Below are positions 8,817 through 17,763 of a stretch of DNA of 29,495 nt, piece after piece. The stretch's first letter is position 1. Every line of letters starts with the position of its first letter. The notes below the pieces were generated by a model. The model ran no database searches and was not told where the DNA came from. It was given only the letters and a program-made list of their open reading frames with translations. The stretch comes from Prasinococcaceae sp. CCMP 1430 (taxonomy: Eukaryota > Prasinodermophyta > Palmophyllophyceae > Prasinococcales > Prasinococcaceae), in the NCBI GenBank assembly GCA_013416795.1, contig RQSC01000029.1, forward strand, positions 311,773 to 341,267, written 5' to 3'. A program made the translations under genes and the position numbers.

Positions 8817-11800
8817 TCAGCGCGCCAGCCTGGCGTGCTCGCTCTTGAGCTCGTACACGGTGGGGAACGCGGCGTTGGCGACGTCCGCCGGCTGCCCGGC
8901 GTAGTACGATGCCATGAATCTGGGCGTCGACAGGCGCTTGTTCCCGCGCCAGTCTGGCATTCGAAGCGGCACCAGCCTGTGCGGAGTGCCGACCCTGCCC
9001 TGGAGACTGTCGGCCGTGATGGAGCCGAGATCGGACACCGTGTCGGTCCACTCGGAGCTGCCGTCGAGCACGAGGAGGGAGCCGTCGATATTAAAATTCG
9101 CGCGCGCGGTGTCGCCATGCGTCTGGACGTCCACCGCGACGTGCGCGAGCGACACGGCCGCGCTGAGGTCGTACGCGATCTTGCCGATGACGCTCTCGAC
9201 GCCCCCCATGCGCATCGACATGACCTGGCAGATCTTCTTGCCGTCAGCGTCCAGGCGTGCGTCAAACCTGAAGAAATTGTCACCGTCCTGGACGTCAAAG
9301 ACAACACCCAGCGAGCTGTTGGGCGTGAGCACGCCCTCGATCGCGATCTCTGTGGGAAAGTAGCCAGCCTCCCAGCTGCTCTCGGCGTCGCTGCCCATGA
9401 GGAAGGTAGGAGTGTACGATGTGCTGTCGCACAGCGAAGGGTCGCTCTGGTTGAGATTGAGCTCCAGGAGAGAGGCGGGGGCCTCTATGCCTTCGCCGGA
9501 GATGAGCGACCACGTCAGGTCCTGGCCACTCTCGCTCAGCGTCTTGGAGACGTCGTGAGGGCCGAACCAGAGCGGCCGCCTGCTGTCCTCCTCAGGCAGG
9601 TCGCTGAGCGTCGAGAAGTCGATGCTGTCGACGAATGTGTCGTTGGACAAGGCAAAGGAGAGCGCAGCCTCCACGCGCGCCACCCTCTCAGAGGTCTCTT
9701 GCAGCCAATCGCGCACCGAGCGCGCGCTTCCGTCGTCCTCGTTGACCACGATGACGTCGTCGACGGTGAGCGTGCCATCATAGCCAAGGGCCCCTGCTGC
9801 GCTCGCATCGTTGCGCGTCATGGCCATGTGGTGCTTGAAGACGGTGCTCCTCCAGCCGAAGGCGGTGGTGCCATCTTCGCCGCCCTCGGGGCTGATCCTC
9901 TGCGCGGTATCGACGCCGCACACCAGCGGGCACACGTTGGGCTTCCCCGGGCTCGCGTTTTCGTGGCCGCTCCACACGTAGCTGTCGCCGCAGCGCTGCA
10001 GGCTGCCCATCGACTCGTCGTACGAATCAGGGTAGTCGAAGTTGTAGGAGACGTAGTGGGCGTCCTCGTGGTCGACGTCGGGGTGGCGCAGGTAGTACGT
10101 CTCGCCGCCTGAGTCCAGACCGCTCGGCAGAGGGCGATCCACGTCGGCGAGCTCGCAATCCGAATATTGCGAGTCCTTGTCCATCTCGTCGCACCCGAAC
10201 CAGATGCCCCCCGCTCCAAGGATAGCGTCGCGGAACGTCAACGGCGCGCCATCGTCCTCAAAGCCGCCGTCGTAGTCGTACTGGTCATACAGCTTCCAGC
10301 CCCTGAGGTTGCACGGCACGTCGCCAATGTTGATAATCTCCAACCAGTCCTCAGGATCGCCGCGCGGGTGCACTTCGTTGATCTTGAGGGCGTCTACTTC
10401 GCACACCAAAGGCACGTAGTCGTCGGGGACCTCTATGACGCCTGTGTCTCCCACGCCCACAGCTCGTGGGGGGGTGCCAAAGAGATCGTCCAGGCTGAAG
10501 CCAGGAGGAAGGTCATCGAGCCAGCCGCCGGGCGGAGGCGGACTCAGCAGGTCGTAATCACTGTACTCTTGGTCGTGGTACTCACTGTACTCTTGGTAGT
10601 TGTACTCACTGTACTCTTGGTAGTTGTAATCACTGTAGTTTTGGTCGTGGTACTCACTGTACTCTTGGTAGTTGTAATCACTGTAATTTTGGTCGTGGTA
10701 ATCACCGTACCCGTAGTCGTAGTAATCACCGTAACCATGGAGGTGGTAATCACTGTACTCTTGGTCGTGGTACTCACTGTACTCTTGGTAGTTGTAATCA
10801 CTGTAATTTTGGTCGTGGTACTCACTGTACTCTTGGTAGTTGTAATCACTGTACTCTTGGTCGTGGTACTCACTGTACTCTTGGTAGTCGTAATCACTGT
10901 AATTTTGGTCGTGGTAATCACTGTACTCTTGGTAGTTGTAATCACTGTAATTTTGGTCGTGGTACTCACCGTACCCGTAGTCGTAGTAATCACCGTAACC
11001 ATGGAGGTGGTAATCACTGTACTCTTGGTCGTGGTACTCACTGTACTCTTGGTAGTTGTAATCACTGTAATTTTGGTCGTGGTAATCACTGTACTCTTGG
11101 TAGTTGTAATCACTGTAATTTTGGTCGTGGTACTCACTGTACTCTTGGTAGTTGTAATCACTGTAATTTTGGTCGTGGTAATCACTGTACTCTTGGTAGT
11201 TGTAATCACTGTAATTTTGGTCGTGGTACTCACCGTACCCGTAGTCGTAGTAATCACCGTAACCATGGAGGTGGTAATCACTGTACTCTTGGTCGTGGTC
11301 CGGCGAGGGCGCGTCCGGCGAGGGCGCGTCCGGCGGCGGCGAATCAGGCGGCGCGGAAGGTGCGCTCGGCACGTCCGTCTGGCCGAACAAGTTCCACCCC
11401 CAGCAGAGGATTTCGACGTCGGTCTGCGCGACGCCGCACGTGTGGTACGCTCCGGCGCTCACGGAGGACCACGTGCCCACGCCGCTGGGAACAGTTGTCT
11501 GGCCGTTGATATTGTATCCCCAGCAGTGCAGCGCGGAGTCCACCTGCGCGATGCCGCACGTGTGCCGAAGTCCGGCGCTCACCGAGGACCACGCGCCCAT
11601 GCCGCTTGGAACGGTTGTCTGGTCGTACTCGTCATATCCCCAGCAGTGCAGCACGCCGTCCGCCTGCGCGATGCCGCACGTGTGGTAACCTCCGACGCTC
11701 ACGGAGGACCACGCGCCCACGCCGCTTGGCACGTCCGTCTGGCCGTAGTCGCCATATCCCCAGCAGTGCATCGCGCCGTCGCCTTGCGCGATCCCACACG

Positions 11801-14800
11801 TGTGAAGTCCTCCGGCGCTCACGGAGGACCACGCGCTCACACCGCTCGGCATGGTAGTCCGGTTGTAGGTGCTGTGTCCCCAGCAGTGCAGCGCGCCATT
11901 GCTCTGCGCGATGCCGCACGTGTGCTCATGCCCGGCGCTCACTGAGGACCACGCGCTCACATTGCTCGGCACGTCCGTCTGGCCATGCCCTGTTGCTCCC
12001 CAGCAGTGCAGCGTGCCATCGTCCTTCGCGATGCCGCACGTGTGCTCATGTCCGGTGCTCACGGAAGACCACGCGCTCACATGGCTAGACACGTTCGTGG
12101 GCCTGCGGTACTCGTCGTCGCCGTCGTATTCAGAATCGATGTAGGAGGTATCTCCCCAACAGCGCAGCTCGCCGTCGGCGTGCGCGAGGTCGCACGTGTG
12201 GAACAGTCCGGCGCTCACAGAGTGGGGTGGGCTCGGCGGTGGGCTCGGCAGTGGGCTCGGCGGTGGGCTTGGCGGCGGAGACGGCGGTGGGCTTGGAGGG
12301 GAGCTCGGTGTGTGCGGGCTCGGATCGTAAAAACCCCACACCATCACGCCGCCAGGAATGTTCGTCTGGCCTTGCTCGTCGGCTCCCCAGCAGTGCAGCG
12401 CGCCGTCGGCCTGCGCAACGCCGCACGTGTGGTAGGAACCGGCACCCACGGAGGACCAAGCACTCACGACCACAGGCACGTCCGTCTGACCATATTCATT
12501 CCATCCCCAGCAGTGCAGCGCGCCGTCGGCCAGCGCGACGCCGCACGTGTGGTAGGAGCCGGTGCTCACGGAGGACCACACACTCACGACCACAGGGACG
12601 TCCGTCTGACCATATGCATTCCATCCCCAGCAGTGCAGCACGCCGTCGGCCTGCGCGACGCCGCACGTGTGGTAGGAGCCGGTGCTCACGGAGGCCCACG
12701 CACTCACAACGACCGGAACGTCAGTCTCGCCATTGCCATTATATCCCCAGCAGTGCAGTGCACCGTCGGCCTGCGCGATGCCGCACGTGTGGTAGGAACC
12801 GGCGCTCACGAAGGACCACGCACTCACATTGACCGGCACGTCCGTCTGGCCATCGCTGTTAGATCCCCAGCAGTGCAGCGCGCCGTCCGCCTGGCGCTAC
12901 GGCGTGCACACCATCCTCGGCCGCGAGTGGGAGGACCACGCACTCACAACCACCGGAACGTCCGTCTGGCCAACGCCGTTATATCCCCAGCAGTGCAGCG
13001 CGCCGTCGGCCTGCGCGATGCCGCACGTGTGGTAGACACCGGCGCTCGCGGAGGACCACGCGCTCACAACCACCGGCACATCCGTCTGGCCCTCGCCGTT
13101 CGATCCCCAGCAGTGCAGCGCGCCGTCGGCTCGCGCGATGCCGCACGTGTGGTACTGTCCCGTGGCCCCGGGGAAAGCCTCGCCAGCGGCGGCCGACGGG
13201 TCCTCCGGCGAGTACGGTGAAGACGGAGTAGGGCTCGGTGTGTGCGGGCTCGGATCGTAAAAACCCCACACCATCACGCCGCTAGGAACGTTCGTCTGGC
13301 CTTGCTCGTCGGCTCCCCAGCAGTGCAGCGCGCCGTCGGCCTGCGCGACGCCGCATGTATGGTAGAAACCGGCACCCACGGAGGACCACGCACTCACGAC
13401 CACAGGCACGTCCGTCTGTGCAGCGCGCCGTCGGCCTGCGCGACGCCGCATGTATGGTAGAAACCGGCACCCACGGAGGACCAAGCACTCACGACCACAG
13501 GCACGTCCGTCCGACCATCGCTGTCGACTCCCCAGCAGTGCAGGGCGTCGTCGGCCTGCGCGATGCCGCACGTGTGCTGGCTTCCAGCGCTCACGGAGGA
13601 CCACGCACTCACGACGACCGGCACGTCCGTCCGACCATTGTCGTTCGATCCCCAGCAGTGCAGCGCGTCGTCGGCCTGCGCGATGCCGCACGTGTGATAC
13701 CATCCGGCGCTCACGGACGACCACGCACTCACGACCACAGGCACGTCCGTCTGACCACCGCCATTAAATCCCCAGCAGTGCAGTACACCGTCGGCCTGCG
13801 CGATGCCGCACGTGTGGAAGGAGCCGGCGCTCACGAAGGACCACGCACTCACATTGACCGGCGCGTCCGTCTGGCCATCGCTGTTAGATCCCCAGCAGTG
13901 CAGCGCGCCGTCCGCCTGCGCGATGCCGCACGTGTGGTAGGAGCCGGCGCTCACGGAGGACCACGCACTCACAACCACCGGAACGTCCGTCTGGCCAACG
14001 CCGTTTGTTCGTCTGGCCTTGCTCGTCGGCTCCCCAGCAGTGCAGCGCGTCGTCGGCCTGCGCGACGCCGCATGTATGGTAGAAACCGGCACCCACGGAG
14101 GACCACGCACTCACGACCACAGGCACGTCCGTCTGGCCACCGCCATTAAATCCCCAGCAGTACAGCGCGTCGTCGGCCTGCGCGATGCCGCACGTGTGGT
14201 GGACTCCAGCGCTCACGGAGGACCATGCACTCACGACGACCGGTACGTCCGTCTGGCCATCGCCGTTAGATCCCCAGCAATGCAGCACGCCGTCGGCCTG
14301 CGCAACGCCGCACGTGTGGTAGGAGCCGGCGCTCACAGAGGACCACGCACTCACAACCACCGGCACGTCCGTCTGACCATCTACATTCCATCCCCAGCAG
14401 TGCAGCGCGCCGTCCGCCTGCGCGATACCGCACGTGTGGTACTCTCCGGCGCTCACGGAGGACCACGCACCTACGCTGCTCGGCACGTGCGTCTGGCCCT
14501 CGCCGTTCGATCCCCAGCAGTGCAGCGCGCCGTCGGCCTGCGCGATGCCGCACGTGTGGTAGGAGCCGGCGCTCACGGAGGACCACGCACTCACATTGAC
14601 CGGCACGTCCGTCTGGCCCTCTATGCTGCGTCCCCAGCAGTGCAGCGCGCCATCGTCATGCGCGATGCCGCATGTGTGCTCACGTCCTGCGCCAACGGAG
14701 GACCACGCACTCACATTGACCGGCACGTCCGTCTGGCCGTACACGTTGTCTCCCCAGCAGTGCAGCGCGCCGTCCGCCTGCGCGATGCCGCACGTGTGCG

Positions 14801-15103
14801 TGTATCCTGCGCCCCCGGGAAAAGCCTCGCCAGCGGCGGCCGACGGGTCCTCCGGCGCGTACGGGCTCGGCGGTAGAGATGGCGGTGGGCTCGGCAAAGA
14901 ATTTGGCGGGGATGGGCTCGGCGGTGCGCTCGGCGGCGGCGGGCTCGGCGGCGGGCTCGGCGGCGGGCTCGGGGGGAGGCTCGGCGGCGGGCTCCGAACA
15001 ACGCTACTCGCGCGAGCTCTGCGAGGTGTGCATCCGCCGCCGCTGCCGCTGCCACTGCCGCCGCCGCTGCCGCCGCCGCGCGTTTGCGTGCACTGCGCCG
15101 CAT
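8817..15103 (-). CDS. Giant modular secreted-type CWG-repeat / Tyr-rich / lamin-tail protein, disrupted as assembled
   Basis: The main frame runs from about 14990 down to the TGA at 8817. It encodes, N to C: a Pro/Ser linker; about 26 CWG units of 40 residues; Pro-Ser linkers at about 13160-13250 and 12225-12320; a Tyr/Asp repeat block (10550-11310); a lamin-tail domain (about 10410-9925); and a C-terminal domain of about 370 residues I do not recognise, partly beta-rich (VVFDVQDGDNFFRFDARLD). Each unit carries HTCGIAQADGALHCWG, then GQTDVP and VSAWSSVSAG, with two Cys that could pair, as in secreted RCC1/BNR-like repeats. The 5' end is unresolved: an ATG at 15103 opens a signal-peptide-like stretch (MRRSARKR then Ala-rich) but in another frame, so a small intron or frame error lies near 15000. 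Three further breaks exist: a 22-nt insertion near 13989-14010, a 25-nt deletion near 13418, and a TAG inside 12894-12929. The uninterrupted part is 8817-12839. An extracellular or cell-surface role is inferred from Cys pairs, linkers and the paralogue's signal peptide. Confidence 0.7.
9925..10410 (-). other. Lamin-tail domain (LTD) within the modular protein
   Basis: The encoded segment reads LKINEVHPRGDPEDWLEIIN, then LRGWKLYDQ, ILGAGGIWFGC, LPSGLDSGGETYYLRHPD, MGSLQRCGDSYVW and SPGKPNVCP. This is the LTD pattern (INEV...DWLEIIN, GW.L.D, SGGE.YYL.., G..RC.D, PG.PN), a small beta-sandwich common in secreted bacterial and algal proteins as well as in lamins. The acidic composition fits calcium or polycation binding, but that is inference. 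Confidence 0.85.
10553..11310 (-). repeat. Tyr/Asp-rich coding repeat with exact 264-nt higher-order period
   Basis: The protein here is built of 8-residue words such as EYSDYHDQ and NYSDYNYQ, almost entirely Y, D, E, S, H, N, Q. A diagnostic variant (HLHGYGDYYDYGYG) recurs with its CCATGG at 10735, 10999 and 11263, that is, every 264 nt (88 codons). Within each period the 24-nt words alternate. The complement strand is also open and would give Val/Leu/Ile repeats, a by-product of the codons used. Perfect frame conservation and near-identity of words suggest recent expansion with selection on the Tyr-rich reading. Confidence 0.9.
11341..14830 (-). repeat. Array of 120-nt (40-residue) CWG units
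   Basis: The CCCCAGCAG word (encoding CWG on the minus strand) recurs every 120 nt, for example at 11519, 11639, 11759, 11879 and 11999. I count about 7 units in 11341-12180, 7 in 12360-13150 and 12 in 13310-14830. They are separated by Pro/Ser linkers. Blocks are duplicated: linkers with PEDPSAAAGEAFPG occur at about 13160-13210 and 14812-14862. The unit with GADEQGQTN followed by VMVWGFYDPSPHTPS occurs near 12315-12400 and 13245-13330, and a truncated form sits at 14011. Confidence 0.9.
12894..12929. other. 36-nt same-orientation complement patch inside a CWG unit
   Basis: Flanks on both sides match the sister copy at about 13875-14005 exactly for more than 40 nt. Between them each of the 36 bases is the Watson-Crick complement of the base at the same position in the sister (13919-13954), without reversal. 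For example, observed GCGCTACGGCGTGCAC stands opposite expected CGCGATGCCGCACGTG. The patch covers exactly 12 codons of the minus-strand frame and creates one TAG; the frame resumes after it. Confidence 0.9.
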
Positions 15104-16905: not shown

Positions 16906-17763
16906 CTACGGCCGCCAGGCGATCGCCGGCCGGCCCCCCTTTCGGCCCTGTCCCCGCCCGCCGCCCCTCCCGCCCTCCTGGAACTGTTGCATGGCCTTCC
17001 ATACGCCTGCGCGAGTCACCTCGGACATCGTGTCGACGAAGTACAGCCTCTCCGCCCTCAAGCGAGAGAACGGTTCGCGCGCCACTTCGTACAGGATCTC
17101 GTCCAGTTGTGCGAGGCTCTTATCAGTCGGCACCACAAGCAGCTCGACCTCGCGGTGATGCGTGTACTGCGCGACGTCTGGATCATCGTCGAGGCGGCAC
17201 TCTACCTTGCCGATCATGCAGTTGTCGATCACGCCCTGGATTTTCCTGCCGTCGTGCCCAGGCGTCGCTGTGAGCGCGACGATGCGCGCCTTGATGTTCG
17301 CTTTGCTCAACGACTCCACCACGTTGACGAAGGCATACTTGCCACTTGCGTGGTGCGCCTCGTCCACAACCACGCACACCACTCGCTCCTGCGGGCACGA
17401 TGCGTTCATGATGTCCTTCTCCACACATTGCGGCGTCGCAAACACCACGCGCTTCGTCTGCCAGAGCGCACGGCGCTTTGCGCTGGGCCCGCTCGATCCG
17501 GTCATCTGCACCACATGCGCCGGATCGAAGCCGACGGCTGCCTGGACCGCCCTCATCTGCTGGTCGACCAGCGGCTTCGTGGCGGCCAAGAAGATAATGA
17601 TGCCTTGAGGATACCAACGGTAGAAGTTGGCCATCACCACGCCAGCGATGAGCGTCTTGCCCAAGCCCGTCGGAAGGCAGATCATCGTGTTCTCGAAGAG
17701 CGCCGATGCGACCATCTCGAACTGATACTCACGACGAGGGGGATACGTGGGGTACTNGCCCAA
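16906..17763 (-). pseudogene. FANCM/MPH1-type DEAH helicase fragment (N-terminal ATPase lobe only)
   Basis: The frame reads YPTYPPRREYQ, motif I CLPTGLGKTLIA, motif Ia ATKPLVDQQ, motif II VVVDEAHHASGKYAF and motif III ALTATPG. MVASALFENT, NFYRWYP, MTGSSGPSAKR, QCVEKDI and YTHHREVELLVVP complete a good match to FANCM/Hef/Fml1, fork-remodelling DNA helicases. Family members continue with an insert domain and a second RecA lobe. Here the reading breaks off after VTRAGVWKAMQQFQ into Gly/Arg-rich residues and a TAG at 16906-16908, only 90 nt before the next gene. Upstream the frame meets the N at 17757 about ten residues before the Q-motif-like region; it stays open beyond (LLRRHIHCRGLG) but that may be chance. 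So it is a gene cut by the assembly, a remnant, or a gene with an unseen splice. I see no good donor at the break. Confidence 0.75.
17757..17757. other. Single N: probable contig join
   Basis: One undetermined base lies inside the helicase frame, immediately before an unrelated plus-strand gene. With the similar N at 20682, also at a cut gene, this suggests a scaffold gap written as 1 nt rather than a single unread base. Confidence 0.6.

Follow-up and report, generated by a model that had tools for sequence, protein, structure and literature searches.

Within the window (the whole stretch of 29,495 nucleotides that was analysed), a 36-nt block is the exact complement of its sister repeat, written in the same left-to-right order. 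Judged from the sequence, this block is very probably an artefact of sequence construction, in which a piece was complemented without being reversed. In all, about nine such complement-only blocks of 36-95 nt were found in the assembly, and for several of them sister copies fix the edges to the base.

The block of the window lies in an array of RCC1 repeats and is bounded by flanks that recur in a sister copy of ordinary sequence. The features concerned are as follows.

8817-14897, minus strand: the frame in which the block lies, open but broken and composed of RCC1_2 repeats (units HTCGIAQADGALHCWG with a period of 120 nt); PF13540 with E 4.6e-56, 2.1e-44 and 1.4e-17 on three pieces
12839-12893, no strand assigned: left flank, 55/55 the same as 13864-13918
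12894-12929, no strand assigned: complement block of 36 nt, same-polarity complement of the sister repeat (36/36), which brings a TAG into the minus-strand frame
12930-12980, no strand assigned: right flank, 51/51 the same as 13955-14005
13864-14005, no strand assigned: copy of the sister repeat in its ordinary form, with 13919-13954 as the partner of the block
14541-14576, no strand assigned: further unit that shows these 36 bases in their ordinary form; the block is its complement as well

Compared base by base at an offset of 1025, all 36 positions of 12894-12929 are complementary to 13919-13954 without reversal, and towards the left the identity of the flanks ends with a first mismatch at 12838. 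The block matches its sister with an identity of 1.0 as the complement, 0.33 as the reverse complement and 0.22 as the plain reverse, and chance agreement at the homologous register is excluded (4^-36). An earlier note on this DNA had described a same-order complement of 36 nt between exact flanks of more than 40 nt on each side, a mismatch to the reverse complement and a negligible probability of chance agreement, all of which the comparison bears out. A change confined to the window is rejected, since the block stands in the assembly at C76:324666-324701 and others are found at unrelated loci.

Complement-only blocks at other loci

Every RCC1_2 array located in the assembly was scanned for same-polarity complement matches. 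On contig C3, the segment L007:320-364 (C3:358717-358761) is the complement of an array on C49 and of another C3 array at 45/45 positions, between identical flanks of 67 and 59 nt, and L050:2982-3051 (C3:330481-330550) is the complement of C3:359495-359564 at 70/70 positions. A further segment that is rich in lysine codons, L007:161-203, follows the complement of L050:2077-2108, interrupted by an insertion of 12 nt. As a natural control, mirror matches in an exact-match scan of the RCC1 arrays reach at most 19 nt in non-simple sequence.

Blocks of the same kind interrupt conserved genes. In the beta-tubulin gene on C73, positions L075:1406-1500 are complementary at 95/95 positions to L071:1903-1997 of the copy on C72, the flanks are identical over 668 and 369 nt, and the complement-only translation of the block agrees in 31/31 residues. 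On C94, the second H2B copy (L060:1832-1886) is the complement of the C59 H2B over 55/55 nt, and the first copy (L060:1209-1263) over at least 55/55 nt. The adjoining H2A gene contains stop codons in two segments as written, and these read as H2A, namely SRSAKAGLQFPVGRIAR and RHIQLAIRNDEELSKLLG, only in the complement-only frame. Their complement-only translations match H2A chains in the PDB (E 3.4e-4); in a separate search the best match reached 1.6e-10 and the first single-copy H2A chains 7e-6. Tubulin suggests an affinity of this sequence to the green lineage, as do plant H2A chains among the best PDB matches, though neither amounts to proof. The beta-tubulin on C72 is normal, and the H2B on C59 looks normal.

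Several peculiarities accompany these genes. The H2B body on C94 occurs twice, as identical stretches of 239 nt at L060:1280-1518 and 1585-1823, 305 nt apart; each duplicate is incomplete and has a complement-only block to one side of it. Three beta-tubulin loci (L070, L071 and L075 on C112, C72 and C73) are identical or nearly so in their coding sequence and entirely different beyond the exon, and two of the copies have an N right at the edge of the exon.

Where a close sister is available, the blocks measure 36, 45, 55, 70 and 95 nt. The complement is perfect wherever a near-identical sister exists, and no decayed older blocks were seen. The comparison covered about 190 kb of the 24.5-Mb assembly, picked for repeats, and is therefore not a measure of block density in the genome. 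Within 187 kb, 101 same-length replacement blocks stand between matching flanks, a count that requires exact flanks of at least 14 bases on both sides, so that the H2A, H2B and 70-nt blocks fall outside it. Five of these pairings, representing three distinct blocks, are complement-only. There are no mirror blocks among the 101 and no true reverse-complement blocks either, the sole two calls of the latter kind being a locus compared with itself. Inspection of the translations of five CCT genes, two alpha-tubulins, two FtsZ genes, H3 and H2A.Z revealed no block, and a complement-only tblastn of the CCT genes and tubulins was likewise without one; these clean conserved genes amount to an estimated 14 kb, a sample too small to prove a confinement of the blocks to repeats. 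A copia-type transposon family, searched as a further source of repeats, yielded one match only.

The outside comparison for complement-only sequence was made in prokaryotes: the complement of the E. coli 16S rRNA (1,542 nt) had 0 matches among 5,426 E. coli genomes, and a search of 84,980 genomes with the complement of the 530-loop motif likewise gave 0 matches.

Origin of the blocks

The earlier note had offered two candidates, an editing or consensus artefact and a so far undescribed parallel-strand event; the former is strongly favoured and the latter disfavoured. The preference for an artefact follows from the recurrence of exact, length-keeping complements in unrelated genes (RCC1 arrays, beta-tubulin, H2A and H2B), the damage to conserved histone and tubulin sequences, the exactness of the blocks against their sisters and their absence from the prokaryote assemblies tested. 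The note had also called for a scan for unreversed complements of neighbouring repeats, a positive outcome of which was to support a real event. The scan, carried out on part of the assembly, is positive, but the recurrence points to a systematic pipeline fault and not to the reality of the blocks.

Under such a fault, a short piece that was due as a reverse complement would have been complemented, left unreversed and then written into the scaffold, probably during gap filling or repeat resolution. As the inserted piece kept its length, the flanks remain in register. The same fault very probably also acted on beta-tubulin on C73, on H2A and H2B on C94 and on the RCC1 arrays on C3. A candidate at the level of code is the Perl function reverse called in list context, which would leave the order of the string as it was without preventing its complementation; this is a well-known route to complementation without reversal. 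Orientation faults of assembly and gap-filling software predict exact, length-preserving, complement-only blocks that coincide with joins and repeats of a single assembly and are absent from other genomes; in the present case, the step at which the fault arose is inferred from the sequence. In the literature, we found no paper on this exact assembler or gap-filling fault.

At three loci, paired blocks surround a short normal piece, with lengths of 43-116-45 nt (C3), about 51-147-55 nt (H2A) and at least 55-263-55 nt (H2B, in the C59 register). These pairs resemble two filled gaps that flank a small contig, as we infer from their layout. Isolated single Ns stand at positions 17757 and 20682 of the window, and NN followed by 14 T is found at L051:2159-2160, where an RCC1 array ends; all of these are likely scaffold joins. 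Other marks of such joins are the exon-edge N of the two beta-tubulin copies and the duplicated H2B body.

The foremost alternative holds that the blocks are real DNA, produced by same-polarity (parallel) or “swinger” copying, where the polymerase systematically swaps A and T, and likewise C and G, over a short stretch before resuming normal synthesis. We give this account only a slim chance, and it is equally hard to credit that the organism possesses a process by which short complements of a template are inserted, in the same polarity, into its genome. Seligmann reports the exchange A<->T + C<->G as the only swinger rule seen in DNA, with the 16S rRNA gene in the mitogenome record of Kamimuria wangi as an example (PMC4942731). 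A systematic exchange of this type with sharp switches is what the present sequence displays; moreover, the blocks recur at several loci of the genome, and parallel-direction synthesis has been claimed to occur in PCR (PMC4304224). The presence of normal or normal-looking counterparts (beta-tubulin on C72, H2B on C59) implies that broken copies need not be lethal, which counts against an artefact. On the other hand, a same-polarity complement inside a duplex has no accepted chemistry, the blocks destroy conserved genes, every block with a near-identical sister is exact and undecayed, and the 16S complement has no match in thousands of prokaryote genomes. The Kamimuria wangi case resembles the present one in that a same-polarity complement with sharp edges is set into otherwise regular sequence. 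It differs in that the complement spans an entire gene of a database record, as opposed to about nine blocks of 36-95 nt in nuclear-type genes, and a biological origin is putative in both cases. The cited swinger cases in DNA rest on database sequences themselves, and neither PMC4942731 nor PMC4304224 provides independent evidence for the blocks.

Errors in the decoding of two-base colour-space (SOLiD) data form a second alternative, since a sequence and its complement share the same colours. Colour-space translation errors do yield complement-only stretches, and these would be expected under this explanation. Yet such errors should produce all three XOR-type exchanges, with A<->C/G<->T and A<->G/C<->T appearing about as often as the complement, whereas the two other base exchanges (XOR1 and XOR2) gave 0 rows at E<=1e-4, as opposed to 413 for the complement. 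Colour-space decoding is rejected on these grounds and is, in our estimate, slimmer still in probability. An ordinary small inversion or template switch, which the recent rearrangements of this repeat-rich region might recommend, has a negligible probability. The window block shares with microinversions its shortness and its intact flanks, but microinversions are reverse-complemented and the window block is not; the base comparison with the sister refutes an inversion and a mirror copy alike.

If the blocks were real, they would contradict a basic rule of how nucleic acids are copied. As the product of a construction fault, they would mean that conserved beta-tubulin, H2A and H2B genes are silently broken in this genome. 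Complement-only blocks escape ordinary alignment tools, and claims of swinger replication draw on sequences of this type in public records. A simple screen is to align an assembly with its complement, left unreversed.

The RCC1 reading frame around the block

On the minus strand, the frame as written reads SAWSSHSRPRMVCTP, a stop and then RQADGALHCWG, where the sister register has VSAGSYHTCGIAQ. The TAG that the block had been said to add to an otherwise continuous frame is thus present, but the continuity is not: the RCC1 frame is also shifted from about 13418 to 14006 by a rearranged stretch, as the open reading frames indicate. Similarly, both edges of the block do coincide with codon boundaries of the minus strand, as had been pointed out, but a meaning of this alignment is rejected. 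Other blocks measure 55, 70 and 95 nt, and as block lengths are mostly not multiples of three, the codon-aligned edges in the window are a coincidence.

The out-of-frame stretch 13418-14006 is bounded by direct repeats at 13289-13417 and 14006-14134, which lie at an offset of 717 and are alike in 127/129 nt, and a 95-nt tandem repeat (93/95) is located at one of its edges. The region 13289-14134 is possibly a misassembly or a recent rearrangement. Within the long RCC1 frame, a 48-nt tandem array of 15.5 copies at window positions 10554-11299 encodes a tyrosine-rich repeat (YSDYHDQNYSDYNYQE).
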